DNA of 38,960 nt from Acidimicrobiia bacterium (GTDB lineage Bacteria; Actinomycetota; Acidimicrobiia; Acidimicrobiales; Bin134): positions 1 to 38,960 of the forward strand of contig JAJEDQ010000216.1 in NCBI GenBank assembly GCA_022821445.1. The letters are read 5' to 3'. The notes beneath the pieces are model-generated. The model saw only the letters and a list, made by a program, of their open reading frames with translations, did no database searches and was not told the origin of the DNA. Position 1 is the first letter of the stretch. Each line of letters begins with the position of its first letter. Positions 5,791-30,668 of the stretch are shown here, piece after piece. A program made the position numbers and the translations under genes.

Positions 5791-7230
5791 TCAGGCGAGC
5801 GGCTCGGCGGCCGCGCCGCGCCCGCTGATGCGGCCGAAGGCGAGCGCGTCGGCTATGTGGAAGCCGCCGTCCTTGCACCAGCTGTAGGTGGAGCTGACGC
5901 AGCCCGCGGCGTAGAGGCGCGGGATGACGCGCCCGAGGGCGTCCAGCACCTGCGAGCGCTCGTTGCGCCTCGGGCCGCCGTTGGTCCAGCCCAGCAGCGG
6001 CGCCGACGTGAAGGCGTAGTACGGCGGCTGGTCGATCGGCGCGAGCGTCGCCGGGTGGCGCTGGAACTGGTCGTCGACGCCCGCGGCGCAGGCCGCGTTG
6101 TAGCGCCGCACGGTCTCCTCGAGGACCTCGCCGTCGACGTCCAGCAGCGCGGCCAGCTCGCGAGGGGAGTCGGCGCGCTTGATCCAGCCGCGCTCGATCT
6201 CGGCGCTGTTGTCCTCGCTCCACTCGTAGCCCTCGACGAGCATGTTCCAGCCCACCGGCAGCAGCTCGGGCGGCGGGGAGATGGGGCCGGCGAGGCGGGT
6301 GCGCTCGTCGAAGATCACGTGCATCGGCGCGGCCGGGTAGAGCTCGTAGGCGCCGTTGAACTTGCCGTGGCCGTGGCCGCCCCGGGGGAACTCGTCCATC
6401 ACCCGGCGGCCGTCCATGCCGGTGAAGACGAAGCCGCGCGCGAAGACGAAGGAGACGTAGAAGCCGCTCTCGAAGCCCTCCGCGCGGAAGCCGAAGGCGG
6501 TCGCCATGTTGTCCATGTGCCAGAGGTCCGCGCCGACCTGCTGCGCCATGCGGATGCCGTCGCCGGTGCCCGCGGGCGAGCCCCAGACGGGCGAATCCGG
6601 CAGCCGCAGGTAGTCGCGCACCATCTCCGGGTTGTTCTCGAAGCCGCCAGTTGCCAGCACCACACCCCGCCGGGCTCCCACCCGCAGCGGCTGGCCGCCG
6701 GAGGTGGCCGCCACGCCGACCACCGCACCGTCGGCGTCGGTCACCAGCTCGTTGGCCGGAGTGTCCAACAGCACCTCCACGCCCTTGTCCCGCACCGCGG
6801 CAGAAAGGGCCTTCCACAGCAACTGCTGTCCCATCTCCCCGTTGACCCCCAGATAGCCGCCATAGAACTCGGCGCCGGGCATCTCCGGGTATTCCGGCTT
6901 GTAGTCGGCGTGGACGCCCGGAGTCACCCCCAAGCCCTCCAGCCACTCGGTGTTCTTGTAGGTCTCGTCAGCCCACACCTGCACGATCTCCTCGGGCAGC
7001 GTGTAGGGCCCGCACAGCGACCGCAAGTACGTGGCCATTCCGTCGCGATCCAAGCTGTTGAACCAGATCCCCCCCGAGATGCGGGTGTTGCCCCCCTCAC
7101 GCCCCTCGGGCATCTTCTCCAACAAGATGACCGAAGCCCCCGCTTCAGTCGCCGCGATGGCCGCCGCGCACCCCGCCGCGCCCATCCCCAGCACTACTAC
7201 ATCAGCTTCTCTGTCCCATCCATTGCTCAT
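5791..7230 (-). CDS. FAD-dependent oxidoreductase, fumarate reductase/ketosteroid dehydrogenase-like (possible chimera)
   Basis: A 479-residue flavoprotein. It has an N-terminal dinucleotide fold GMGAAGCAAAIAA with LLEK, a GGNTRISGG FAD-contact segment near 46, the VLATGGFENNPEM segment near 191-203, and a C-terminal GGFHIADALAFGRISG flavin-capping motif. This is the FAD_binding_2 family that includes fumarate reductases and 3-ketosteroid delta1-dehydrogenases. The reaction is probably removal or addition of hydrogens next to a carbonyl. Codon use switches abruptly near codon 195: in the first part Leu is TTG 7, CTG 10, CTC 0; in the rest TTG 0, CTG 10, CTC 10. The reading frame stays intact. 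The ATG at 7230 has no Shine-Dalgarno but a TACATT box 8 nt upstream. Confidence 0.9.
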   Translation of the reverse strand: MSNGWDREADVVVLGMGAAGCAAAIAATEAGASVILLEKMPEGREGGNTRISGGIWFNSLDRDGMATYLRSLCGPYTLPEEIVQVWADETYKNTEWLEGLGVTPGVHADYKPEYPEMPGAEFYGGYLGVNGEMGQQLLWKALSAAVRDKGVEVLLDTPANELVTDADGAVVGVAATSGGQPLRVGARRGVVLATGGFENNPEMVRDYLRLPDSPVWGSPAGTGDGIRMAQQVGADLWHMDNMATAFGFRAEGFESGFYVSFVFARGFVFTGMDGRRVMDEFPRGGHGHGKFNGAYELYPAAPMHVIFDERTRLAGPISPPPELLPVGWNMLVEGYEWSEDNSAEIERGWIKRADSPRELAALLDVDGEVLEETVRRYNAACAAGVDDQFQRHPATLAPIDQPPYYAFTSAPLLGWTNGGPRRNERSQVLDALGRVIPRLYAAGCVSSTYSWCKDGGFHIADALAFGRISGRGAAAEPLA

Positions 7231-7238
7231 GGCCGGGA

Positions 7239-7244
7239 AATGTA
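7239..7244 (-). promoter_or_regulatory. Putative -10 box for the flavoprotein gene (leaderless type)
   Basis: On the minus strand TACATT lies 8 nt before the ATG at 7230, with no ribosome site between. A transcript would begin at or next to the start codon. No clear -35 box was seen. Confidence 0.35.
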
Positions 7245-7257
7245 GTGGGTCGCCTGC

Positions 7258-8400
7258 CTAGGCGGGCGCCTCCACCCGGTACAGCTTTTCGGCGTTGCCC
7301 CAGAGGAGCTGGTGGCGATCTTCGGGAGAGAAGTGGCCCAGGCTGGCGGCGATCTTCTCCTCCACGTTGTCGTAGAGGCAGGTCGGGTGGGGGAAGTCGG
7401 TCTCGAACAGCACGTTGTCGAGCGGGATTCGGCCGCCGAGCAAGTCTTGCGGTGCGGACTCTTCGAACCAAAACGTGGTGTACACCTGTCCGGTGAAGTA
7501 CTCGCTGGGCAGCCGGTCGAACTCAGGCCGGTCATTCATCCCGCCGCCTTCGACGAACTGGTTGTCCACCGCCTCGAGCATGAAGGGCAGCCAGCCGATG
7601 CCCGACTCCACCGACACCACCTTCAGCTTGGGGTAGCGGGGGAGCACACCCGACAGCAGCAAGTCGCACACCTGGATGCCGTTCTTGGTGAACAGGTCCA
7701 CCGATTGCAGGGCGTAGGCCTCGGCGAAACCCCGGCGCTCTACCCGGTTGTGGTCCCAGTTGAACTCGCCGCTGCCGATGTGGAACGACGCCACCATGTC
7801 GCAGTCGCACACCGCCGACCAGAACGGGTCCCAATGGGGCTCGCCCAGATAGGGCAGGCCGAACACCTGGGGCTCGCCGGTGAAATTCACCGACCTATAG
7901 CCCTTGGCCGCGCACCGCTGCACCTCGGCCACCGCATTGTCCACGTCCCAGAACGGGGTGGCCATCGACGGGATGAGGCGGCGGTCATCGGCGCTGCACC
8001 ATTCGGAGAGGAAGTCGTTGTAGGCCCGGACACACTCGTACTTCAATTCGGCGTCGTCGATGGACAAGAACTTTTGGGCGCCGAACCCGCCGACGTTGGG
8101 GTACAGAACCTCAGCCCACACCCCTCGCTGGTCCATCAGCTCGAGGCGGGCGTGGGCGTCGAAGGCCGCCGGATGTACCTCGTTGTAGCCGGCGGGCGAG
8201 TCAGGCATCGGCTTGGACCACCCGGCGGGGGCCGTGGGGCCCACCGCCCCGACGCGGTCGTCGCCCAACAGCCATATCTGGCGGCCGTCGATCTCCTCGA
8301 CTCTGGGAACGTGGTCGCGGTGGCGGGCGGCCACTCGGCTGGTCCAGGTGTCGGCTGGCTCTGTGATGTGGGTGTCGACATCGATGATCGAATAAGCCAT
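7258..8400 (-). CDS. Amidohydrolase family protein (amidohydrolase 2)
   Basis: A 380-residue metal-dependent TIM-barrel hydrolase or decarboxylase of the PF04909 type. The N-terminus IIDVDTHITEPADTW carries the metal-binding D-x-H pattern. Further ligand candidates are the His in VASFHIGSG and the acidic ETDFPHP segment near the C-terminus. A catalytic core around VSVESGIGWLPFMLEAVD is also typical. These enzymes often process acids with a vinylogous carboxyl or lactone in aromatic and steroid breakdown. I chose ATG 8400 because the longer frame to 8460 runs into the divergent glnS leader. It ends 27 bp before the flavoprotein start, so the two form a likely operon. Confidence 0.92.
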   Translation of the reverse strand: MAYSIIDVDTHITEPADTWTSRVAARHRDHVPRVEEIDGRQIWLLGDDRVGAVGPTAPAGWSKPMPDSPAGYNEVHPAAFDAHARLELMDQRGVWAEVLYPNVGGFGAQKFLSIDDAELKYECVRAYNDFLSEWCSADDRRLIPSMATPFWDVDNAVAEVQRCAAKGYRSVNFTGEPQVFGLPYLGEPHWDPFWSAVCDCDMVASFHIGSGEFNWDHNRVERRGFAEAYALQSVDLFTKNGIQVCDLLLSGVLPRYPKLKVVSVESGIGWLPFMLEAVDNQFVEGGGMNDRPEFDRLPSEYFTGQVYTTFWFEESAPQDLLGGRIPLDNVLFETDFPHPTCLYDNVEEKIAASLGHFSPEDRHQLLWGNAEKLYRVEAPA

Positions 8401-8423
8401 GTCCCAGTCTCGCACCAATCGAG

Positions 8424-17528: not shown

Positions 17529-18338
17529 ATGAAGCCCTATCCGACGCCGCCCGACGGGCTGCACGTGGTCTCGGCGCCGCCGGTGTTGACCCTCACCCTC
17601 GACCGGCCCCAGCGCCGAAACTCGCTGACCGACGATATCGTCTTGGCCCTGATCGACACCTTGGAAGCGGCCAGCGCTGACGAGGAGATTCGGGCGGTTC
17701 TACTCAACGCGGTCGGCGAGAACTTTTGCAGCGGTTTCGACTTGGCCGGGCGGGCCGGTGACGGTTCTCGGCCCCGGCCGGGCAGCATCTCCCGGCGCAT
17801 GCCCTATCTGGTGAACCGGCTCATCCCGGTGATGCTGGAAGTGCAGGTGCCCATTGTGTGCGCCGTTCGAGGTTGGGCGGTGGGGTTGGGGCTCAGTCTG
17901 GCCCTGGCCTCGGATTTCGCGGTGGTCGCCGACGATGCCCGGCTGCGGGCCCCTTTCTCCGCCATGGGCATCACCCCTGATAGCGGCTCGTCGTGGTTGT
18001 TGCCCCGTCTGGCCGGTGTGGCCCGGGCCAAACAAATGCTGATGCTGGGTGAGGAGGTGTCGGGGGCTGAGGCCGCAGAATGGGGGCTGATCCATCAGGC
18101 GGTACCGGCCGACCAAGTCGACGCCAAAGCCGCCGCGCTGGCCTCCCGGCTCGCTGCCTCGGCCACTGTGGCTGTTGGACTGGCCAAAATGCTCATTCAC
18201 CGCGGCTCCGGCCGCAGCCTGGAGGCCCACCTGGGCGACGAGGCTTTCGCCATGGAGCTGTCGTCGCGCTCAGCCGACTTCCGAGAGTGGGCCGAATCCC
18301 GCCGACAGGGCCGTTCTCCCGACTTCACCGGTCGATAG
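17529..18338 (+). CDS. Enoyl-CoA hydratase/isomerase family protein
   Basis: A 269-residue crotonase-fold enzyme, the third in this window. Signatures: DRPQRRNSLTDDI near 24, GENFCSGFDLAG near 61, and CAVRGWAVGLGLSLALASDF near 110, with the SAMGITPDSGSSWLLPRLAG segment near 140 as in acyl-CoA isomerases and hydratases acting on branched or ring-derived acyl-CoAs. The ATG is 16 bp after the DM13 stop and the stop is 47 bp before the UGSC gene, so it may share a transcript with either, although the UGSC gene has its own -10 box. Substrate not deducible. Confidence 0.92.
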   Translation: MKPYPTPPDGLHVVSAPPVLTLTLDRPQRRNSLTDDIVLALIDTLEAASADEEIRAVLLNAVGENFCSGFDLAGRAGDGSRPRPGSISRRMPYLVNRLIPVMLEVQVPIVCAVRGWAVGLGLSLALASDFAVVADDARLRAPFSAMGITPDSGSSWLLPRLAGVARAKQMLMLGEEVSGAEAAEWGLIHQAVPADQVDAKAAALASRLAASATVAVGLAKMLIHRGSGRSLEAHLGDEAFAMELSSRSADFREWAESRRQGRSPDFTGR

Positions 18339-18385: not shown

Positions 18386-18919
18386 ATGTTGGTAATGGAT
18401 CCGACGGCTGCTCCGCCGCTGATCGACCCCGATCGGGGCCCCGATGCCGGTCCGCTGACCGGCAAGCGGGTGGGCATCCGCTACGACCTCACCTGGCGCT
18501 CGTTCCTGTGGACCACCGACGAGTGGACCCGCAAACTGGAGGCGGCCGGTGCCGAGGTTGTTCCGTGGTGCTCGGAGTCCCGCCAGGACGTGAAGCTCGA
18601 GGACGCGGTGCTCGAGGAACTGGATGGCTTCGCCACCGACGTGGATATCGCCATCGTCGGCTTGGGCAATTGAGGCAGCTGCACGTCCTGGACCGTCCAC
18701 GACGCAGTTGCGGTGGCGGCCCAGGGCAAGACGGCGGTCGCCGTCGTAACCGAGGAGTTCGTGCCGCTGGCCGAGATCATGGCCCGCAACATGGAGCGGC
18801 CAGGCTTGCGGCTTTGCGTACTGCCCTATCCGCTGGACACCCGCCCCGAACCGGAAGTACGCCAGATCGCCCACGACTTCTGGTCGTCGCTGCTGGACTC
18901 CCTGGGAGTGCCGTCGTAG
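18386..18919 (+). CDS. UGSC-family selenoprotein, in-frame TGA read as selenocysteine
   Basis: Read through the TGA at 18671-18673, this is a 177-residue protein with Sec at position 96 in the motif U-G-S-C followed by TSWTVHD. The frame is unbroken on both sides. The N-terminal part has GKRVGIRYDLTWRSFLWTTD; VDIAIVGLGN leads into Sec; and AVVTEEFVPLAEIMARN follows. U-G-S-C is the hallmark of a named (seleno)protein family with Cys homologues, whose C/U-x-x-C layout suggests a thiol redox site. Substrate is unknown. A strong hairpin begins two bases after the TGA. A caller treating TGA as stop would report 18386-18673 and perhaps 18713-18919. The stop TAG directly abuts the next ATG. A nonsense mutation is the alternative, but exact placement at the motif argues against it. 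Confidence 0.85.
18671..18711 (+). ncRNA. UGA codon with SECIS-like hairpin
   Basis: After TGA-G, GCAGCTGC (18675-18682) pairs with GCAGTTGC (18704-18711) over 8 bp including one G-U. Inside, GTC pairs with GAC and TGGA with TCCA, closing on the loop CCG at 18693-18695. The loop starts 19 nt after the TGA, within the range known for bacterial SECIS elements. The loop lacks the preferred G in its first two positions, and alternative inner pairings (GTCC/GGAC) exist, so SelB recognition is inferred. Confidence 0.6.
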
Positions 18920-19966
18920 ATGCCCTCTGACGACAATGCCATACCCGAGGGGCGGGTCGAGGCCCCCGACGACCCGGTGGAGTTCATGCGCTGGGCTACC
19001 GATCAGGGCTGGGGCGACGGCCTGCCCCTGATTCCGCCCACGCCGGAGCGGGTGGCCCAGTTCACCACCGCTGCCGACCGCCCGGCCGATTCGGTGCTGT
19101 TGGAGGTGCCCCCGGCTAACGCCTGGTGCACGGTGGAGAAGCTGGCCGTCAACGCCTGCATGGCCGGGGCTGCTCCCGAGGCCATGCCGCTGATGATGGC
19201 CGCGCTGGAGGCCATGGCCGAGCGCCCCTTTGACTTGTTTGCCCTCAACACCACCACCAGCTCGGTGGTGCCGTGTTTGTTTGTGAATGGACAGGCCCGC
19301 GACCGGCTGGATCTGCCCTGCCAGGCTGGGTGTTTCGGCGGGGCGGCCGGGGCAGGGCCGGCCATCGGACGGGCCATCCGGCTGGTGATGCGCAACGTCG
19401 GCGGCCAGGTGGCCGGGGAGACGTCCAAATGCGTGCTGGGCCAACCCGCCCGGGTGGTGGGCCTGGTGATGGGCGAGTGGGAGGAGCGCTCCCCGTGGCC
19501 GCCCCTGGCGGAGCGCCGGGGGGTGAGCGGCGACGCGGTCACCGTCTACGGCACCATCGGCACCATGGACATCGCCGATATCGCCGCCGACAACGGCCAG
19601 TCGCTGGCCTGGGTCATCGGCCAGTCGCTGGCCTATGTGGGCACCAACGCCTACATCTCCCACTGGGGGGCCGAGGTCATGGTGGTGGTGCCCCCACCCT
19701 GGGCCGACATGCTGGCCGCCGCCTACCCCACCATCGAAGACGTGCAAGAGGCTCTGTGGCAAAACGCCCGCCACCAGGTGGATCAATTCCCCGAAACCCA
19801 CAAGCAGTGGCTGGCCGAACGCGACCGGATCAGCCCCGACGGTACTGCCTACATCGTGGAGCACCCCTCCGATGTGATTGTGATGTGCGCTGGCGGGCTG
19901 GGCAACTTGCACGCCGGCGGTCTGCACAACTTCGGCCCCACCCGGGCCATCACCCGGCCGTTCTGA
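18920..19966 (+). CDS. Conserved protein associated with UGSC selenoprotein, function unknown
   Basis: A 348-residue protein starting at the base after the selenoprotein stop, so almost certainly coupled to it. Landmarks: FMRWATDQGWGDGLPLIPPTPERV near 23, WCTVEKLAVNACMAGAAPEAMPL near 70-95, VPCLFVNGQARDRLDLPCQAGCFGG near 115-140, IGRAIRLVMRNVGG near 150 and SDVIVMCAGGLGNLHAGG at the end. I recall proteins with this GDGLPLIPPT ... TVEKLAVNA ... GRA-RL---N-GG layout beside or fused to UGSC domains; no reaction is known to me. Seven or more Cys could be redox or metal sites. No signal peptide or membrane segment. It overlaps the thiamine diphosphokinase gene by one base. Confidence 0.85.
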   Translation: MPSDDNAIPEGRVEAPDDPVEFMRWATDQGWGDGLPLIPPTPERVAQFTTAADRPADSVLLEVPPANAWCTVEKLAVNACMAGAAPEAMPLMMAALEAMAERPFDLFALNTTTSSVVPCLFVNGQARDRLDLPCQAGCFGGAAGAGPAIGRAIRLVMRNVGGQVAGETSKCVLGQPARVVGLVMGEWEERSPWPPLAERRGVSGDAVTVYGTIGTMDIADIAADNGQSLAWVIGQSLAYVGTNAYISHWGAEVMVVVPPPWADMLAAAYPTIEDVQEALWQNARHQVDQFPETHKQWLAERDRISPDGTAYIVEHPSDVIVMCAGGLGNLHAGGLHNFGPTRAITRPF

Positions 19967-22110: not shown

Positions 22111-22920
22111 TCATATGACCGCCTCGCCGCCCAGCGTGACCCGGTGCATGGTGCGGGCAGAGCCGTAGTCCTGCACCGCATAGTGCTGAAGGCAGCGGTT
22201 GTCCCACAGCACCACATCGCCAGGCGTCCACCGCCAGCGAATCTGGAAATCGGGGGACCGCAACTGGCCGCACAGCAGGCCCAGCACCGCTCGGCTCTCC
22301 TCTTCAGCCAGCTCATTGATCCGAGTGGTGAAGAGCCGGTTCACGAACAGGCACTTTCGGCCTGTCGCCGGGTGAGTGCGCACCACCGGATGCGATATGG
22401 GTCGCTCGGGCATCTCAACTCCGACCATGGCCGCGCTGCGGGCCAGATGCGTCCCTCCCTCGTGGACGGCAGTCAGCCTGTCAGCCAGGGCTCGCAGTGG
22501 CACCGACAGATCGTCGTAGGCCGCGCCGGCATGGGAGAAGCAGGTATCGCCCCCGTCGGGGGGAAGCCGCATGGCCCGGAGCATGGTGCCGATGGGGGGC
22601 TGGGCCATCCAGGTGGCGTCGCTGTGCCAAATGGCTACTCCGGCGCCGCGGCGGGCACCGTCTTCGTGGATGATGTGGACCAAGGGGAGGTCGTCGCGCA
22701 CTGGCGGGGAGAAGTGGAACTCCTCGGGGGCGCCGAAGATGGACGCTGCATCCAACTGCTGGTCGTCGGTCATCTTCTGGTTGCGGAAGAAGAGAACCCC
22801 ATGGCGGTGCCAAGCGTCCCGCAGCGCCGAGGCGGTGGCGTCGTCAACGGGAATTGAGAGATCCACCCCGCGTACGATGCCACCCAGCACCGGCGAGATG
22901 GGAGTCACCTCTAGAGGCAC
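22111..22920 (-). CDS. TauD/TfdA family dioxygenase
   Basis: A 269-residue Fe(II)/2-oxoglutarate dioxygenase. The metal triad is HxD at His99/Asp101 (IWHSDATW) and distal His246 (DNRCLQHYAV). The 2-oxoglutarate-binding Arg is Arg260 in ARTMHRVTL. The N-terminus PLEVTPISPVLGGIVRGVDL is typical. Family members release sulfite from taurine, cleave aryloxyacetates or hydroxylate other acids. With two sulfatases and a sulfonate-type importer nearby, a sulfonate or sulfate ester is possible but not shown. I chose GTG 22920; a TTG at 22932 would add four residues. It heads the operon with the MDR and NTF2-like genes and is divergent from the sulfatase. Confidence 0.92.
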   Translation of the reverse strand: MPLEVTPISPVLGGIVRGVDLSIPVDDATASALRDAWHRHGVLFFRNQKMTDDQQLDAASIFGAPEEFHFSPPVRDDLPLVHIIHEDGARRGAGVAIWHSDATWMAQPPIGTMLRAMRLPPDGGDTCFSHAGAAYDDLSVPLRALADRLTAVHEGGTHLARSAAMVGVEMPERPISHPVVRTHPATGRKCLFVNRLFTTRINELAEEESRAVLGLLCGQLRSPDFQIRWRWTPGDVVLWDNRCLQHYAVQDYGSARTMHRVTLGGEAVI

Positions 22921-23021
22921 GCACCCATTCAATCACCTGGTTGGACTGGCAGTCGGGCTGTTGCGCCGTTCTTTGCCCTAAGGCGCTACTGTCTCCCGGC
23001 GTCAGACCACGGGGAGGACCG

Positions 23022-25346
23022 ATGACCGATCAGCGCCAGCAGGAGCACTATCCCGGTTTCGGGGGCAAGATCGGGCGCATCATCGCCACCTCGGAGTCGT
23101 GGTGGCCGCCCAAGCCCACGCCGCCCTCCGATGCCCCCAACATCGTGGTCGTGCTGGCCGACGATCTGGGCTTCTCCGATCTGGGCTGCTACGGCTCGGA
23201 GATACCCACCCCGGCCATCGACGCGTTGGCCGCCACCGGGGTGCGCTACACGAACTTCCACGTGACCCCGCTGTGCTCGCCCAACAGGGCGGCGCTGTTG
23301 ACCGGGCTCAACTCCCATCACGCGGGCATGGGATTCGTGGCCAACGCCGATCCAGGCTTCCCCGGCTATGCCGGAGAGCTGCCCCACAACCAGTGCACGC
23401 TGGCCGAGATGCTCAAGGCAAACGGCTACGCCACCGCGGCGGTGGGCAAGTGGCATCTGTGTTTGGAGTCCGACCTGTCTATCGCCGGCGACACCCACTC
23501 GTGGCCGCTCCAGCGGGGCTTCGACCAGTACTACGGCTTCTTTGAGGCCCTCACCGACTTCCACTTCCCCCACCAGCTCTACGAGGGCAACAACCCCGTA
23601 CACGTGGACGAGTATCCCGAGGGCTACTACCTGACCGACGACCTCACCGACCGGGCGTGCCGCATGATCCGCGAGGTCAAGACCACCGATCCCGAAAAGC
23701 CGCTCTTTCTGTATTACGCCCACGGGGCGGTCCACGCTCCGCTGCACGCCAAGGCCACCGACACCGCCCGCCACCGGGGCAACTACGACAAGGGCTGGGA
23801 CCAGATCCGCGAGGAGCGCCTGGCCCGCCAGAAGGAACTGGGCATCGTCCCCGCCGATGCCGAGCTGCCGCCCCGCAATACCGAGCCCAACGAGGACGTG
23901 GCGGCCTGGGACAGCTATCCCGAGCCCGACCGCCGGGTGATGGCCCGCTACATGGAGGTGTACGCCGCCATGGTGGAGTCGATCGACGAGAGCGTGGCTC
24001 GCATCTCAGCCGAGCTGGAGGCCCTCGGCCAGCTCGACAACACCATCTTCGTGTTCACCAGCGACAACGGGGCGTCCCGCGAAGGCCGGGCTCAGGGCAG
24101 CACCTCGTATTTCACTCACAGCGGCACCGGCGCCCGGCCCTCGCCTGACGTGGGCGACTTCGAGGTGGCCGCCCTCGAGGCCGACGAAATCGGTGGCCCG
24201 ACCACTTGGCCCCACTATCCCCGGGGATGGGCCATGGCCTGCAACACCCCCTTCAGGCTGTACAAGATCACCGCCCACCGGGGCGGCCACTCGGTGCCCA
24301 TGGTGCTGTCGTGGCCGGCCCGCACCGCGGCCATCGGCGGGGAGTTGCGCCACCAGTACACCCATATCACCGACCTGCTGCCCACCCTGGCCGACCTGCT
24401 CGGCCTCGAGGTGCCCACCGAACGCCAGGGACAGGCCTCCGACGCCCCCGACGGGGTGTCGTTCGCGGCCACCCTGAGCGACGCCGACGCCCCGTCCGAC
24501 CACACCGAGCAGTACATCGAGTGCATCGGCCACCGGGGCATGTACCGCGACGGCTGGGGGGCGGCCATCTTCCACGAGCACCACACCCCGTTCAGCGAGG
24601 ATCGCTGGGAGCTGTTCAATTTGGCCGACGACTTCAACGAGCGCAACGACCTGGCCGACGCCGAGCCCGAGAAGCTGGCCGAGATGGTGGAGGCCTGGGA
24701 GGAGGCCGCCTGGCGAAACCGGGTCTTCCCCCTCGACGAAGCCTCCGGGCTCTTCCGCACGTTGAAACCGCCCGAGCACGCCAGGCTCACCCGGGAGCTG
24801 CGCATCCTGCCCGGATCGCCCACCGTGGAGCGATTGCGGTCGTCCCGGCTCATCGCCGGCGGCAACTTCACCTTCACCGTCGACCTGCACCACCGCCCCG
24901 GCGACCAGGGCGTGCTGGTGGCCCACGGCAGCCAGGCGTCGGGCTATGTGCTCTACATCGAGAACGACGCCCTGTGCTTTGTGGTCAACAGCTCCGGCCG
25001 GTACTTGGCCGCCGATCCCGTAAGCCTGCCAGGGGAGTGCCGCGAAGTTGTGGTCGACGCCGCCGCCCCCGGCGGACGGATCTGGAATTTCACCGTGAGC
25101 GCCGACGGGCAGGAGGGCGCCACGCTCGCCGAAGTCCCCCAGATGATCGGCTTTCTGCCCTGGCAGGGCATCGACGTCGGGCTCAACCGGCGCTCCCCGG
25201 TGTCGTGGGACCTCTACCAGCGCTACGGCACCTTCCCCTACACCGGCACCATCCACCAGGTGACCTACACCCCCGGCCCCCCCGCCCCCGACGTAGACGA
25301 CGCCCTCCTAGAAGACTTCCGCGAATTCGGCATGGTGTTGGAGTAG
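23022..25346 (+). CDS. Arylsulfatase-type sulfatase with long C-terminal extension
   Basis: A 774-residue sulfatase that would hydrolyse sulfate esters. The metal site starts with NIVVVLADDLGFSDLGCYG (Asp47, Asp48). The catalytic signature CSPNR has Cys85, expected to be converted to formylglycine. Further sites are AAVGKWHLCLE, YYAHGAVHAPLHA, FVFTSDNGASREG, and KITAHRGGHSVP. Residues from about 600 onward form an extra beta-rich domain (FTFTVDLHHRPGDQGVLVAHG) beyond the core. No signal peptide is seen, so it may be cytosolic. ATG 23022 has GGGGAGG at ideal spacing. No formylglycine-generating enzyme lies in the window. Confidence 0.94.
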   Translation: MTDQRQQEHYPGFGGKIGRIIATSESWWPPKPTPPSDAPNIVVVLADDLGFSDLGCYGSEIPTPAIDALAATGVRYTNFHVTPLCSPNRAALLTGLNSHHAGMGFVANADPGFPGYAGELPHNQCTLAEMLKANGYATAAVGKWHLCLESDLSIAGDTHSWPLQRGFDQYYGFFEALTDFHFPHQLYEGNNPVHVDEYPEGYYLTDDLTDRACRMIREVKTTDPEKPLFLYYAHGAVHAPLHAKATDTARHRGNYDKGWDQIREERLARQKELGIVPADAELPPRNTEPNEDVAAWDSYPEPDRRVMARYMEVYAAMVESIDESVARISAELEALGQLDNTIFVFTSDNGASREGRAQGSTSYFTHSGTGARPSPDVGDFEVAALEADEIGGPTTWPHYPRGWAMACNTPFRLYKITAHRGGHSVPMVLSWPARTAAIGGELRHQYTHITDLLPTLADLLGLEVPTERQGQASDAPDGVSFAATLSDADAPSDHTEQYIECIGHRGMYRDGWGAAIFHEHHTPFSEDRWELFNLADDFNERNDLADAEPEKLAEMVEAWEEAAWRNRVFPLDEASGLFRTLKPPEHARLTRELRILPGSPTVERLRSSRLIAGGNFTFTVDLHHRPGDQGVLVAHGSQASGYVLYIENDALCFVVNSSGRYLAADPVSLPGECREVVVDAAAPGGRIWNFTVSADGQEGATLAEVPQMIGFLPWQGIDVGLNRRSPVSWDLYQRYGTFPYTGTIHQVTYTPGPPAPDVDDALLEDFREFGMVLE

Positions 25347-25460
25347 TTACCCGCTCCGCTAGGGGGTCGCGGCGGTCGGAAGGCAACTGCACGGTTCTCG
25401 GCAGGGCCGATTGTTAGCAGCCTGTTGGTACGCGCGCGTTGGTGGTACGCCCGCAGGTGA

Positions 25461-27869
25461 TTGGGCAGGTGGCAGGATCAGGCACAGCCGGGTTGCTGGG
25501 CCGCGGGGTTGGCACTGGCAGTGTCGTCTGGCTCTCAACCGTCGGCGTCGGCTCATGACCAAACCGAGCGGGTGCGGGTTCGGATGGCGCCGTTCACAAA
25601 ACGGGTTCGGGTGGCGCCGTTCACCCGGGAGGTGCAGGTGCGAGTGCCGCCGTACCTGGAGGAGGTGGCGGTGTTCAACTACGAGTGGCAGGATCGCCCT
25701 GTCGCGCACACTCACCCCACTCCTAGTTCGACGCCGTGTCCTGTGGAGCGTTTCGATCCTTCGACGGGGGCGTGTTGGCCTGATCCGGCGAGTTGCGGGA
25801 GTCTGCATACCCATGGGGGGTCGGCGTGCCATGATCCCAACAAGTCGCATGTGGGGGAGTGCCCGACCGGCACGCAGCTTCAGGGCCACAGCGACTGTGT
25901 GCCGACGCCGACTGCGGCGCCATCTGTGACTGCCACGCCGACGCCGACTGCGACGCCATCTGTGACTGCCACGCCGACGCCGACTGCGACGCCATCTGTG
26001 ACTGCCACGCCGACGCCGACTGCGACGCCATCTGTGACTGCCACGCCGACTGCGGCGCCATCTGTGACTGCCACGCCGACTGCGGCGCCATCTGTGACTG
26101 CCACGCCGACTGCGGCGCCGTCTGTGACTGCGACGCCGTCTGTGACTGCCACGCCGACGCCGACACCGGTTCCTGTTGTGGTGCCGTCTGGCGTTGCGCT
26201 GGGGTGTACGTACTCTGGCGGCGGTTATGTGTTGTCTGCCTCGTGGGTTTTGCCGGCGGGTGCGCGGGTGTATTGGCAGTGGCTCAAAGATGGGAAGATC
26301 ATCAAGTACGGGAGGCTGGCCCGCGTGCTCAGCGCCACCCGTTGGGTGGACGGGCCTGGTGATTACGCGGTGCGGGTGCGTGCCCACTTCTCCAACGGCA
26401 GGCGGTCGGAGTGGGCGAGTGCATCGGTGACCTGCTCGGCTGACTCGCTGGCCGCGCCCGCAAACGTGTCAGCGGTGTGCTCGGCAGACGGGGAGCTGCA
26501 GGTGTCGTGGGGGCATCGGGGTCCGCTGTTGCCGCGCCTTCATCTTGAGGTGGAGGTGGACGGGACGACAGTCGGCTCGGTCAACTATCGGTCGGTGCCG
26601 AGCACGGTGGAGTCCTACGCTTACCGGTGGAATGGGGCGGAGTCGAACCGGGCCCACCGGGTGCGGGTGCGCGTCGCGAGCGCTCCGGCAGGCGTCGCGT
26701 TGGGCGAGGACCGCGAGTCGCCGTGGTCCGGTCTGGTGACCGCGAACAATTGCGCAGTGTTCAAGCCCGCGGGCTTCACCACAGCGACGTGCAATGCCCA
26801 CGGCGTGGTCCACCTTGAGTGGGACTCAGTGGGCGGCGCAGATCGCTATGACTTGAAGAACACCGCGCCGGGAGAGGAGAGCGTGAATTACGAGGGACCG
26901 GCTACCGAGGTATACGCCCCAAGATGGGAGGGCGAGACCTACAAGTTCAGGATCAGGGCCCGCGCCCGAACGGGCCAGAAATGGTCCGGCTGGACCAACC
27001 CCACAACCGTCCAATGCGACCCCCTTGACCCGGTGCTGCTCACCGCTAACCGCGCGGCTGGTGTAAGCCCCCACTGGTCGAGTCCGAACGGTAACTGGGT
27101 CAACGCTCCCGGAGGGCGGTTCTGGGTCGCCCCACAGGTGCTGCGCTACATGCCCGACGATGCCAAGAGCCCCAATCTGGGCCGCGACAACTGTACGGCG
27201 ACCAAACGCAACAAAGACGACGACGGCTGGACCCGCACCTGCACCTTCCACTGGACCGAGCCGCTGGCGGTCCGCCTCGACGAGGCCACTGCCCAGAAGT
27301 TGAGCCATCCCGCCCACATCGACCACAGTCCCACCCAGCACCTGCACATGGACGCCGACGGCAACCCGACGACCGCAGCCCACCAGCACTGCAAAGCCGA
27401 CAGCGACAAGGACGGCCAGCCCGACGGCGACGGCACCTGCCCCGGCCCCGATAACCCCAACGCCCCAGACCTCCCTTGGCACACCTCGCTGCCACCCCTC
27501 GACGACAACTTCTGGATTGAAGCGTTTGCAGCGTCTACAATCACCACATCTGTGAGCGAGGCAATTGGCATAGGAGCGGCTGCTCTGAAGGGCGCACTTG
27601 CAGGCTCAAAAGTCAAACTCGGAGCAGTCACGCTGGTCTCGACTCTTATAGGCATCGGAGCAGGTATCGTTGTCGTGTTGCTGTTCAGATCGGACTCTAA
27701 GCTATATCTCGTCATGAATCCTGCTATTGACTGTTTTGATTTTTCAATTGCTGGAGGTTCGAAATGGCAGCAGGAAACAGCGGTTGTTAGGCACAACCTT
27801 CAGAATGGAGAATACGAAACCGTCTATGAGCACAAGATAGCTAACTGTACAAAGGGGACATCGTCCTGA
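25461..27869 (+). CDS. Secreted repeat protein: Pro/Thr linker, FnIII domains and C-terminal membrane segment
   Basis: About 802 residues. The N-terminus (CWAAGLALAVSSGSQPSASA) looks like a partial signal peptide; the TTG at 25461 lies right after an in-frame stop, so the true start or an upstream frameshift is uncertain. Order: basic RVRVAPFTREVQVRVPPY stretch, a Cys-containing module with SLHTHGG, a PTPTATPSVTAT repeat linker (residues about 147-235), then three FnIII domains bounded by Cys. A His/Asp-rich region with DSDKDGQPDGDGTC, resembling calcium-binding loops, comes before a hydrophobic segment near 719-743. The last 60 residues are encoded by AT-richer DNA. Probably a cell-surface protein, coupled to the next gene by TGATG. 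Confidence 0.75.
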   Translation: MGRWQDQAQPGCWAAGLALAVSSGSQPSASAHDQTERVRVRMAPFTKRVRVAPFTREVQVRVPPYLEEVAVFNYEWQDRPVAHTHPTPSSTPCPVERFDPSTGACWPDPASCGSLHTHGGSACHDPNKSHVGECPTGTQLQGHSDCVPTPTAAPSVTATPTPTATPSVTATPTPTATPSVTATPTPTATPSVTATPTAAPSVTATPTAAPSVTATPTAAPSVTATPSVTATPTPTPVPVVVPSGVALGCTYSGGGYVLSASWVLPAGARVYWQWLKDGKIIKYGRLARVLSATRWVDGPGDYAVRVRAHFSNGRRSEWASASVTCSADSLAAPANVSAVCSADGELQVSWGHRGPLLPRLHLEVEVDGTTVGSVNYRSVPSTVESYAYRWNGAESNRAHRVRVRVASAPAGVALGEDRESPWSGLVTANNCAVFKPAGFTTATCNAHGVVHLEWDSVGGADRYDLKNTAPGEESVNYEGPATEVYAPRWEGETYKFRIRARARTGQKWSGWTNPTTVQCDPLDPVLLTANRAAGVSPHWSSPNGNWVNAPGGRFWVAPQVLRYMPDDAKSPNLGRDNCTATKRNKDDDGWTRTCTFHWTEPLAVRLDEATAQKLSHPAHIDHSPTQHLHMDADGNPTTAAHQHCKADSDKDGQPDGDGTCPGPDNPNAPDLPWHTSLPPLDDNFWIEAFAASTITTSVSEAIGIGAAALKGALAGSKVKLGAVTLVSTLIGIGAGIVVVLLFRSDSKLYLVMNPAIDCFDFSIAGGSKWQQETAVVRHNLQNGEYETVYEHKIANCTKGTSS
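25901..26167 (+). repeat. In-frame tandem repeat coding for a Pro/Thr/Ala linker
   Basis: Units of 36 bp (PTPTATPSVTAT) come first, followed by units of 30 bp (PTAAPSVTAT), about eight in all. Units are nearly identical at the DNA level, pointing to recent expansion and likely length variation between strains. Multiples of three keep the frame. Confidence 0.85.
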
Positions 27870-28360
27870 TGGGAAAGCTAGAGCAGGACTTCTTATCGAG
27901 AGCCGACTATGCGGCAGACCTCACTTGGTGGGAGATAACGAGAATCAGTTTTTGGTCAGGATATTGCAAGAAGCCGGTTCCTCGACCGCACGGTTGCGGG
28001 CCAGTGATGAGGTGGTTGATAGGCTTCAGAGAAACCCATACTGTTAATGGAAAAGAAAATTGGATACCCCTTATTGTCTATCTTGGTTTAGTGATCATGG
28101 CATTTGTTTTGACATGGATTTTCGGGCATATCATTGGCAATTGGGCGTTGCTATGGTTTGGTCTGGTAATCGTTGGTTTAGGAATTCATGTTTATTCAGG
28201 CGTGCTCTGCTTTCGGGCTGGTGGTTGGGAAGAGATACTTGAAGAGAGGTGTAAAAAAACGGCTTGGGATGAGCAGTTGGGGGTTTTGCGGGGGGATTCA
28301 GACGGGGGCGCCGGTCGGCGGTTTGGCAGGTTCTGGCGGCGGGTTCGACGGGTTGGGTGA
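27869..28360 (+). CDS. Small membrane protein, function unknown
   Basis: A 163-residue protein with two membrane segments, about 66-86 (WIPLIVYLGLVIMAFVLTWIFG) and 92-115. The N-terminal part has WWEITRISFWSGYC and CGPVMRWLIGFRETHT; the C-terminal tail is Arg-rich (GAGRRFGRFWRRVRRVG). Its ATG shares a base with the stop of the secreted repeat protein (TGATG), so the two are made together and may form a complex. The DNA is AT-richer than its surroundings up to about 28260. No family recognised. Confidence 0.65.
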   Translation: MGKLEQDFLSRADYAADLTWWEITRISFWSGYCKKPVPRPHGCGPVMRWLIGFRETHTVNGKENWIPLIVYLGLVIMAFVLTWIFGHIIGNWALLWFGLVIVGLGIHVYSGVLCFRAGGWEEILEERCKKTAWDEQLGVLRGDSDGGAGRRFGRFWRRVRRVG

Positions 28361-28378
28361 GGGCTGTCGGGGGTTTGG

Positions 28379-28987
28379 GTGGCACGGTTTCGTTGTGTTT
28401 TGGAGGGTGTTTCTGGTTTGGTGATGCACAATGGGGCGGCAGGGTTGGACGCTGGCAGTGCGTGGAATGTGGAGCGGGCAGGGATCGCTCGGAAGCGGGC
28501 GGGGTCTCGCACGGCGGCCGATGAGTTGCGTTTGCGGGAGTTGGAGTGCTTGGTGTCGTTGTGGTTGGACGATGAGCAGCGGCCGGCGGTGCCGACGGCG
28601 GCGGTGCGGGCGTGTGTTGAGTCGGGGGCGCGGCGGGTGAGGCAGGGGCCTTTGGTGCGCGAGGGCCTGCGGGTGGAGTCGGTGGGGCGGTTCGGCTACG
28701 ACACTGAGCGGTATGGGACGTCGTTGGAGGAGCTGGGGACCTCCGCGCAGTTCACGGCGGCGGTGGTGGTGCAGCGGGCCCGGATTCTGCGGACTAGGGC
28801 CAAGTTCGATGCGCCGTGGTCGCTGGAGTTCACGGTGGGGGTGAACCCGGAGCTGGTGGGCAAACAGGAGTTGGCCCAGTGGTTGGAGATCGCCGGCAAC
28901 CGGGTGGGTTTGGGCGACTGGCGCCCGGAGAAGTCGGGCAGCTACGGGAGGTTCCGCACAGACAGCATTGAGGAGTTCCCGCCCTGA
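28379..28987 (+). CDS. Phage-type conserved protein (GxGDWRPEK motif), function unknown
   Basis: A 202-residue protein. It starts at a GTG with an LVMHNGAAGLD segment near 14, has a central acidic/hydrophobic helix (AADELRLRELECLVSLW), then VPTAAVRACVESGARRVRQG, SAQFTAAVVVQRARILRTRAKFD in pieces, WSLEFTVGVNPELV and the end motif GLGDWRPEKSGSYGRF. I recall this MHN ... R-ILRTRP-F ... G-GD-RP---G-FGRF layout from hypothetical proteins of phages and mobile DNA, but no function is known to me. It stands 18 bp after the small membrane protein. Confidence 0.7.
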   Translation: MARFRCVLEGVSGLVMHNGAAGLDAGSAWNVERAGIARKRAGSRTAADELRLRELECLVSLWLDDEQRPAVPTAAVRACVESGARRVRQGPLVREGLRVESVGRFGYDTERYGTSLEELGTSAQFTAAVVVQRARILRTRAKFDAPWSLEFTVGVNPELVGKQELAQWLEIAGNRVGLGDWRPEKSGSYGRFRTDSIEEFPP

Positions 28988-29071
28988 CGGGAAGGCGGAA
29001 CCGCGCGACAGGGTCGCCGGGGCCAGGCCAAATGCCGTAGATCCCGATGGGAATTAGAGCCTCCGAGGCTA

Positions 29072-29121
29072 GGCATGGCATGGCGGGGCAGGCCGCGGCA
29101 GGGCAAGGCGAGGCAGGGCAT
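29072..29121. repeat. Degenerate pentamer tandem repeat (GGCNN x10)
   Basis: Ten consecutive 5-mers in register, mostly GGCAT, GGCAG, GGCGA or GGCGG with one GCCGC. It fills the gap between the phage-type gene and the convergent sulfatase. No stable hairpin stands out. Confidence 0.6.
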
Positions 29122-29180
29122 TGGGAAGCGAATCCCGTCGCTGTGTCCGGCACCGCGCTTCAGCCCGGTTCGCTGTGGGA

Positions 29181-30668
29181 TTATTGAACCCCGTATTCCG
29201 CCGCTTCCAGTTCTCGTAGCAACTCAAACCGCTCCCTCAGCTCCCGACGCCGGCTGCGGTCGTTGGCCAGATTCACCAATTCGTGCGGATCGTCATCGTG
29301 GTCGTACCACTCGTGGTCGTGATCGTCGAAGTCGGCGTCGGGGCCGAACAGCATGGAGTCGCCCAGCGACACACCGAGATTGCTGACCCCGCCGCCGATG
29401 CCGTAGTAACGGCAGTATTTGTGGCGGCCGTCGAACACCCCGGATGAGGCGTAGCGCACCTTCTCCACCCCCAGGTACCACGGCCACCGCTGGGCGAACA
29501 GGATGTGGTCGCGGATCGCCGCCGACTGGTCGTCGAACAGCGGGCTGAGGCTCAGGCCGGGCAGATCGGAGGCGTCCACCCCGGCCAGCTCCAAGATGGT
29601 GGCGGCCAGGTCGGTGTGGCACGTGAGCGACTCGGTGGCCGTCCCCGCCGCCGTCAGCCCCGGCGCGGACACATACAGCGGGATCCGCATGGTCTCCTCG
29701 TAGTTCCACGGTCCCTTGGAGCGCAGCCTGTGCGAGCCGCACTGGTCGCCGTGGTCGGAGGTGAACACCACCACGGTGTTGTCCCACTGGTCGATGTCGT
29801 CGAGCGCGGCCAGGATCACCGCCAGGCACTGGTCGCTCAACTGGTGCAGCTTCACGTAGTAGTCGAGCTGGCGCAGCCACAGGTCGTGGTCGCCGGGGTC
29901 CATCGGCCCCGGGGTGCTGTTGCGCTCCATCTCCAGCAGCCACCGGCGGTGCACCTCGGGCTTGGAGTGCAGGTCGTCGTCGAAGTTCTCGGGCAGCTCG
30001 GTACACCACCGCTCGATCTCGTGGGCGAAGGCGGGCAGGTTGGTGGCCCGGCCCCACTTGCGCCGGTCGAGCTTCTCCCGGCTCTGGGCCACGTAGTCGG
30101 GCGCCTGTTCCCAGAACCAGGGCTGGTCGAGGGGGAACCACATGATGTCGTGGGGGTTCACCAAGCCCACCGTCAAGAACCACGGCTGGGTTGCGCCCCG
30201 TTGATCGCGCAGCCAGGCGGCCGAGTCGGCGGCGATGGGCTCGTCGAACTCGGTGCCGCTGCCCGGCAGCCCCCAAAAGGCCATGTCGTTGCCGGTCCAG
30301 TCGGAAAAGCCGTAGGCCTCCATGTTTGGTTCGGCGGCGGCTTCGAGGTGCCACTTGCCCTTGTAGGCGGTGCGGTAGCCGGCCTCTCGCAGCCTGGTGC
30401 CCAGGGTGGGGATGTCGGAGGAGAGCTGGGTGTTGTTCGGATAGCTGGAGTTCTCGGTCACCCCGTGCTCGTCCATGTGCAGCCCGGTGAACAGCGTGGC
30501 CCGCGACGGCGAGCACGGCGAGGTGTGGGTGTAGTGGCGGCGGAACTCCAGCGACTGGTCCAACAAGCGCCGGCGGGCGGGAAGCGGCACTTCGGGCGGC
30601 AGCCAATCCCTCTGGCGCTCTTGATCGGACACCAACAACAAGATGTTGGGCGACCTGTTTTCGGGCAT
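29181..30668 (-). CDS. Sulfatase
   Basis: A 495-residue sulfatase. Metal-binding begins at NILLLVSDQE (Asp15, Gln16). The catalytic signature CSPSR has Cys52 for formylglycine conversion, followed by ATLFTGLH. Later sites are YKGKWHLE near 100, VNPHDIMWFP, VVFTSDHGDQCGSH near 310 and KGPWNYEETMRIPL. It belongs to the choline-sulfatase/iduronate-sulfatase-like group without an obvious signal peptide, so a small sulfate ester taken into the cell is plausible. The ATG at 30668 lacks a ribosome site but has TACGCT 7 nt upstream. It is divergent from the ABC importer operon. Confidence 0.94.
   Translation of the reverse strand: MPENRSPNILLLVSDQERQRDWLPPEVPLPARRRLLDQSLEFRRHYTHTSPCSPSRATLFTGLHMDEHGVTENSSYPNNTQLSSDIPTLGTRLREAGYRTAYKGKWHLEAAAEPNMEAYGFSDWTGNDMAFWGLPGSGTEFDEPIAADSAAWLRDQRGATQPWFLTVGLVNPHDIMWFPLDQPWFWEQAPDYVAQSREKLDRRKWGRATNLPAFAHEIERWCTELPENFDDDLHSKPEVHRRWLLEMERNSTPGPMDPGDHDLWLRQLDYYVKLHQLSDQCLAVILAALDDIDQWDNTVVVFTSDHGDQCGSHRLRSKGPWNYEETMRIPLYVSAPGLTAAGTATESLTCHTDLAATILELAGVDASDLPGLSLSPLFDDQSAAIRDHILFAQRWPWYLGVEKVRYASSGVFDGRHKYCRYYGIGGGVSNLGVSLGDSMLFGPDADFDDHDHEWYDHDDDPHELVNLANDRSRRRELRERFELLRELEAAEYGVQ

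Follow-up and report, generated by a model that had tools for sequence, protein, structure and literature searches.

A predicted UGSC selenoprotein of an Acidimicrobiia bacterium is paired with a partner gene and is probably related to the selenocysteine-bearing domain of GrdB/PrdB

Introduction

The locus studied here raises a double question: whether a TGA that splits an open frame of an Acidimicrobiia bacterium is a stop or a selenocysteine (Sec) codon and, if the latter, what the resulting protein might do. The window (the whole 38,960-nucleotide stretch of DNA that was analysed) had previously been read from sequence alone, and this sequence-only reading proposed a selenoprotein of the UGSC family. 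A bacterial selenoprotein gene is expected to have an in-frame TGA with conserved coding sequence after it, a SECIS hairpin following the TGA, and a host that encodes SelA, SelB, SelD and tRNA-Sec.

UGSC appears as a named selenoprotein family in passages of several papers (PMC2398784, PMC9312934, PMC13188914, PMC5029168, PMC7539508, PMC9402790, PMC7435645, PMC5330540), and the relevant part of one of them ranks it among the commonest selenoproteins of marine metagenomes, with 8.2% of selenoprotein genes (PMC9402790). The passages of reviews that name UGSC give no function for it, and those of the papers naming the family mention neither a link to GrdB nor a partner gene; the same holds for the titles and abstract openings among the matches listed in searches of an open-access library. 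The family and its use of Sec are known; the partner gene and the five gene pairs described here offer a handle on the family's role.

An in-frame TGA in a UGSC-family gene

The features of the locus are as follows.

17529..18338, forward strand: enoyl-CoA hydratase-family gene, upstream of the UGSC gene (PF00378, E 1.7e-44)
18386..18919, forward strand: gene for a UGSC-family selenoprotein, 177 residues long when the TGA is read as Sec (PF24696, E 5.7e-30)
18671..18673, forward strand: Sec96 codon TGA (U-G-S-C); TGA in 23 of 23 relatives spanning the site and at 90 of 98 sites
18684..18704, forward strand: SECIS-like hairpin region, eight candidate pairs, nucleotides +11 to +31 after the TGA; seven of eight form in the window
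18920..19966, forward strand: partner gene, encoding 348 residues without a Pfam or NCBIfam family; begins with an ATG immediately after the UGSC stop codon

The ATG at 18386, the TGA and the TAG at 18917-18919 share one frame with no further stop between them, which confirms the two open frames, split by the TGA, that had been described. Reading the TGA as Sec gives a protein of 177 residues containing U96-G97-S98-C99. The sequence-only reading placed the truncation at codon 95: the standard-code product is indeed 95 residues long, and the TGA itself is codon 96. Its assignment to the UGSC family was borne out by profile search, in which the read-through product matches Pfam PF24696 with 105.1 bits (curated cut-off 25), residues 3-173 aligning to positions 2-170 of the 172 in the profile, and has the U/C-G-S-C motif of the family at the conserved place. 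PF24696 also recognises each part on its own, the 81 residues that follow the TGA at E 2.1e-18 and the piece before it at E 0.0056. The NCBIfam UGSC equivalog NF041046 has a cut-off of 125 bits, and residues 73-173 reach only 68.9 bits against it, so that the window protein belongs to a divergent branch of UGSC rather than to the equivalog itself. With its full-length Pfam match, its motif and, as seen below, the exchange of Sec and Cys at the first motif position, it otherwise resembles the known family.

Conservation of the selenocysteine site

A scan of genome contigs yielded 24 loci related to the window gene, of which 23 span the Sec codon, and TGA is present in all 23 (L026, which covers residues 1-55 only, was left out of this count). 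Fifteen of the 23 relatives are 90-99% identical to the window protein and come from metagenome-assembled genomes labelled Acidimicrobiia, Acidimicrobiales, Sva0996 or only bacterium, while the remaining eight are 54-61% identical and are labelled Myxococcales, Deltaproteobacteria, Actinomycetes, Acidimicrobiia or bacterium. In the 11 near relatives that were compared, out of 15, dS is some five times dN or more both before and after the TGA; in L009, for example, dN is 0.028 and dS 0.241 after it. These substitution patterns indicate that purifying selection acts on both sides of the TGA, and the in-frame TGA is accordingly followed by conserved coding sequence.

We then assembled 97 UGSC loci, window not counted, comprising 23 from the pattern search, four paralogues from the window's own genome, 30 from a search of the class and 40 hand-picked for spread among the matches listed; ten duplicates from the same genome (L045-L054) and L026 were left out. 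Sec (TGA) is present in 89 of the 97, and the other eight have CGSC at the motif. Cys homologues had been suggested as something to look for, and relatives do carry either U (TGA) or C at the TGA position. Only P6, U/C96, G97 and C99 are invariant in an alignment of 81 UGSC sequences.

Either the TGA is decoded, or the locus is a pseudogene, a sequencing error, or an ordinary stop followed by a frame that is open by chance. TGA is a stop in the standard code and high G+C content leaves long chance frames, but TGA recurs in 23 of 23 relatives and in all five UGSC genes of the window's genome, selection is purifying on both sides of it, and both a hairpin and Sec machinery are found (see below). 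The PF24696 match on both sides of the TGA, the conservation of the TGA, the hairpin and the dN/dS ratios rule out a chance frame or a pseudogene, a reading to which we give practically no credence.

A hairpin downstream of the TGA

We examined the hairpin at 98 sites, which after removal of 12 identical sequences left 78 TGA and eight Cys sequences. With a pairing model that was picked after inspecting several of the tested sequences, 84.1% of hairpin cells are paired in the TGA set (n = 78), as against 51.6% at most for slid versions of the model. When the TGA set was resampled with synonymous codons, pairing averaged 59.3% and peaked at 66.3%, and none of 500 resamples reached 84.1%. At the innermost position, 50 of the 78 TGA sequences have C-G and 23 have G-C; the outermost pair forms in 26 and fails in 52. 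The Cys set, of only eight sequences, shows 59.4% pairing, which 124 of 500 resamples match.

Taken alone, the window hairpin with its seven of eight pairs is not significant, as 29% of synonymous resamples do as well. The corresponding values for the paralogues in the same genome are seven of eight pairs for L055 (5% of resamples), eight of eight for L057 (5%) and seven of eight for L058 (12%), and L056, with five of eight (61%), is not significant. Since pairing exceeds the synonymous-codon null for the family and not for the window alone, we regard the hairpin signal as a property of the family, and it is at the family level only that the SECIS hairpin expected of a bacterial selenoprotein is found.

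Selenocysteine machinery in the host and the class

The sequence-only reading had predicted that the host should possess Sec machinery, and considered a complete genome lacking selA, selB and selC as evidence against a selenoprotein. In the window's genome (3.41 Mb in 256 contigs, 92.7% complete), genome search recovered all the expected components: SelA overlaps SelB on contig C243, which also carries a tRNA-Sec with anticodon TCA, and SelD lies on C91 (L043, 27404-28348), its gene containing a single in-frame TGA close to the start. A near-copy of the tRNA-Sec lies at the end of C78, within a 309-base stretch (C78:1-309) that is 97.4% identical to C243, and may represent a strain variant, a contig overlap or a real duplicate. 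UGSC-motif selenoproteins are also mentioned, in the part of PMC5330540 that deals with them, in three genomes with a tRNA-Sec of anticodon CUA, apparently including Blastococcus saxobsidens.

We conclude that the window gene belongs to the Pfam UGSC family, that its in-frame TGA is conserved and that its host has the Sec genes. Judged from its sequence, it is a real and intact gene for a predicted selenoprotein, an ordinary representative of a known family.

The accompanying remark that actinobacteria-like lineages seldom have Sec machinery does not hold for this class, since SelA is found in 267 of its 395 genomes (profile match at E <= 0.001). PF24696 is present in 139 of the 395: UGSC and SelA co-occur in 118, UGSC is found without SelA in 21, SelA without UGSC in 149, and neither in 107. 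SelA is present in 98 of the 103 genomes with a TGA-containing UGSC copy among the matches listed, and in one of the seven with Cys copies only. As for the 21 UGSC genomes without SelA, five have a TGA copy and six have only Cys copies among the matches listed, and the remaining ten were left unclassed because their UGSC matches fall outside these. The five with a TGA copy (G188, G292, G361, G364 and G377) include three that are 56-79% complete and two that are 96% complete, and they count against the Sec reading. Many genomes of about 1 Mb in genus g88 of family f34 match SelA, often twice.

Another gene of the window's genome (G000:C137:20447-20878, recovered as both L122 and L182) codes for a PrdB-like protein and carries an in-frame TGA within a UPLC motif. 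If SelD and the UGSC genes, five in number, are counted as well, the candidate Sec-codon genes of the genome come to at least seven.

A partner gene forms a two-gene module with UGSC

The window's genome contains five UGSC genes, each with one TGA, and the standard code would cut all five at that codon. The four paralogues are 20-34% identical to the window protein. When the genome was searched with the protein encoded immediately downstream of the window gene, exactly five homologues were found, the query among them, and every UGSC gene has one of them next to it.

This partner gene adjoins UGSC on the same strand in 92 of the 97 loci. It precedes UGSC in 63 of these 92 and follows it, as in the window, in the other 29. 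Two of the five unpaired loci (L023 and L062) are within 301 bases of the end of the available sequence, and in L063, L074 and L081 no partner was seen in at least 1.4 kb of sequence on both sides of UGSC. In the vicinity of L074 and L081 is a frame that we take by eye to be a short-chain dehydrogenase, and near L081 another that is presumably, also by eye, an aminomethyltransferase/DMSP demethylase. L134 has two partner homologues in tandem (6506-7480 and 7643-8422) beside one UGSC gene.

Co-occurrence extends to the level of genomes: among the 395 of the class, 134 have both genes, five only UGSC, five only the partner, and 251 neither (Fisher p 5e-92), with copy numbers possibly low as at most eight UGSC and five partner candidates were scored per genome. 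Moreover, the UGSC and partner distance matrices, compared for the 88 of 92 pairs within length limits, are correlated at 0.96, and at 0.94 for distant pairs only, values reached by none of 999 permutations; this correlation is partly due to the shared descent of the species. Within the window's genome, the nearest relatives of UGSC and partner coincide at L055 and L056, agree only in broad terms at L058 and differ at L057. UGSC and its partner therefore constitute a two-gene module, present in five copies in this genome and co-inherited across the class.

The partner matches no Pfam or NCBIfam family, and we judged its scattered weak matches to be due to chance. Its alignment contains no invariant Cys; position 84 is Cys in 87% of members and Ala in the window partner. 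The partner was modelled with a pLDDT of 93.1, and the best structural candidates from Foldseek, fumarate hydratases (E 1.3e-4, TM 0.26, rmsd 16 A) and cyclic amide hydrolases (from E 1.8e-3, TM 0.20), are too weak to assign it a fold. A search by sequence for solved relatives gave none for A2, and three matches for A1 (E 0.067-0.48) that we judged to be chance. We also considered whether the partner might be a second selenoprotein, as several of its members appeared to stop short in the profile; at the 12 loci inspected the frame is closed by a TGA that comes after the conserved part, and no conserved reading follows, so that it is most simply an ordinary stop.

Genomic neighbourhood

No third gene is common to most of 68 UGSC-partner loci, and 34 of these modules have no operon neighbour at all according to a simple gene caller that misses real genes. 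The enoyl-CoA hydratase gene of the window is an operon neighbour in 17 of the 68, namely the window, 14 near relatives and two others. We could not derive a pathway from these surroundings: no neighbour names a substrate, and 15 of the 17 enoyl-CoA hydratase loci are the window and its near relatives. Further downstream, the window encodes a TauD-type dioxygenase (22111-22932) and two sulfatases (PF00884; 22854-25343 and 29181-30668), and the genes at 22111-30668 are perhaps involved in the metabolism of sulfated compounds. A search of viral contigs gave no match.

Predicted fold and probable relation to GrdB/PrdB

An AlphaFold2 model of UGSC built from 81 sequences (pLDDT 93.0) predicts a domain of alternating strands and helices with five strands (b28-33, a38-53, b57-62, a69-85, b88-94, a97-111, b116-122, a123-135, b142-146, then helices), in which Sec96, modelled as Cys, occupies the tip where strand 88-94 passes into helix 97-111. 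The best 50 of 1614 PDB matches are headed by NQO1, flavodoxin fusions, a dipicolinate synthase chain and MdaB, and also include flavodoxins, diflavin proteins and other Rossmann-like folds. The best match has E 3.4e-4 and five of the 1614 reach E <= 0.001; with TM about 0.5 and rmsd mostly 5-9 A, the likeness concerns the fold class only.

These results bear on another possibility for UGSC, that of a general thiol/selenol oxidoreductase or peroxidase of thioredoxin-like fold, with the partner as an accessory. Its UxxC motif is that of thioredoxins, and the part of PMC13188914 that treats UGSC places it beside Prx-, Trx- and Grx-like proteins with a Trx-like fold. The predicted topology differs: the model is flavodoxin-like rather than thioredoxin-like, no thioredoxin is present in the best 50 of the 1614 PDB matches, and no thioredoxin family occurs among the Pfam and NCBIfam matches of 81 UGSC members. 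We consequently hold this possibility to be improbable, the resemblance to UxxC selenoproteins lying in the motif and the difference in the predicted fold.

A different relationship emerged from profile comparison. Aligned by hhalign with profiles from the class, UGSC matches PrdB-like proteins (n = 25) at 85.3% probability, GrdB (n = 22) at 89.4%, and the two combined at 96.2% (P 2.3e-9), or 97.1% with roles exchanged. The alignment places the UGSC Sec on that of GrdB/PrdB with 83 aligned columns around and after it, in a profile for which 47 of 51 fetched loci gave sequence (L122 and L182 being the same gene) and whose choice by a motif filter favours the motif itself. Controls remained low, with at most 1.7% for 20 column shuffles, 0.1% for the reversed profile, 0.1% for the partner profile, and at most 2.9% for nine unrelated families. 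In addition, a scan of the 81 UGSC members, which also returned chance families such as MTA phosphorylase (5 of 81, best E 5.7e-4), gave matches to TIGR01917 (glycine reductase selenoprotein B) at E <= 0.01 for 37 of them (best 1e-6), to the sarcosine model GrdF for 24, to TIGR01918 for seven and to the betaine model for three. No GrdB model is found among the matches of 75 partner proteins.

The relation is one of profiles, with TIGR01917 recognising under half of the UGSC members. The window protein itself matches no GrdB profile, so that the homologous Sec-bearing domain is detected for the family profile and not for the window sequence alone, and a single GrdB sequence found no solved relative. 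Nor does the window protein belong to PF07355 (GRDB): it gives no match at E <= 1, and at E 0.1 the Pfam matches obtained for the 81 members do not include this model. A likely reason is that the Pfam model seems to stop at Sec: in L092, the PF07355 match fills a 348-residue frame ended by the motif TGA. UGSC also differs from GrdB in size (177 residues against the 436-residue GrdB frame of L092) and in its partner.

In GrdB/PrdB systems the pyruvoyl subunit GrdE/PrdA is represented by PF09338, which has no match in the window's genome and is absent from 125 of the 139 UGSC genomes, being present in 14. Nor is the UGSC partner related to this subunit by profile, its probability as a GrdE/PrdA homologue being 0.1%. 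We consider it well supported that UGSC consists of one flavodoxin-like domain and that this domain is a relative of the Sec-bearing one in GrdB/PrdB (PF07355, TIGR01917, TIGR01918), known from glycine, sarcosine, betaine and D-proline reductases. A near-obligate partner, a confident fold prediction unlike the one in print, and a link to selenoenzymes that break C-Se bonds together make the function of UGSC testable.

A possible mechanism

In the putative mechanisms outlined in the relevant part of PMC10298544, Sec of D-proline reductase attacks proline held on the pyruvoyl group of another protein, and in glycine reductase the cleavage of a selenoether yields a selenenyl sulfide. By analogy, we infer that the likeliest role of the module is that of a two-protein, thiol-dependent reductive enzyme, in which the partner would hold the substrate and UGSC would supply Sec96 and a resolving Cys99. 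The partner would form the substrate site, Sec96 would attack the bound substrate, Cys99 would resolve the intermediate as a selenenyl sulfide, and a cellular dithiol or reductase would recharge UGSC. Substrate activation would have to differ from that in GrdB/PrdB, because PF09338 is mostly absent and the partner is unrelated to GrdE. The lack of a third gene common to most of the 68 loci is in keeping with a self-contained enzyme that draws on the general thiols of the cell for recharging. Different UGSC-partner pairs might serve different substrates, which would explain the several paralogous pairs per genome and their varied surroundings.

Alternatively, a GrdB/PrdB-like domain may have turned into a carrier or sensor, for instance of a metal, selenium or a sulfur compound, without reductive bond cleavage. 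The missing pyruvoyl subunit in most UGSC genomes and the want of a common pathway neighbour agree with such a role, against which stand the retention of Sec in 89 of 97 copies and the very few invariant positions, as catalysis predicts, as well as the several paralogous pairs per genome; we regard it as unlikely. The account that we prefer, of a Sec-containing UGSC and partner module related to GrdB/PrdB and working in a PrdB-like manner, seems to us on the whole probable, if by no great measure. We advance more tentatively, and with some doubt, the further proposal that a miniature Sec domain of GrdB/PrdB type has combined with an unrelated substrate-binding protein in place of the pyruvoyl subunit, and that substrate-specific pairs have multiplied in non-clostridial bacteria, which would make this a new two-subunit selenoenzyme.

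Full-length GrdB matches also occur in the class (e.g. L092-L115), with a UGTG motif in 22 extracted sequences, and the pyruvoyl family PF09338 is found in 24 of the 395 class genomes.
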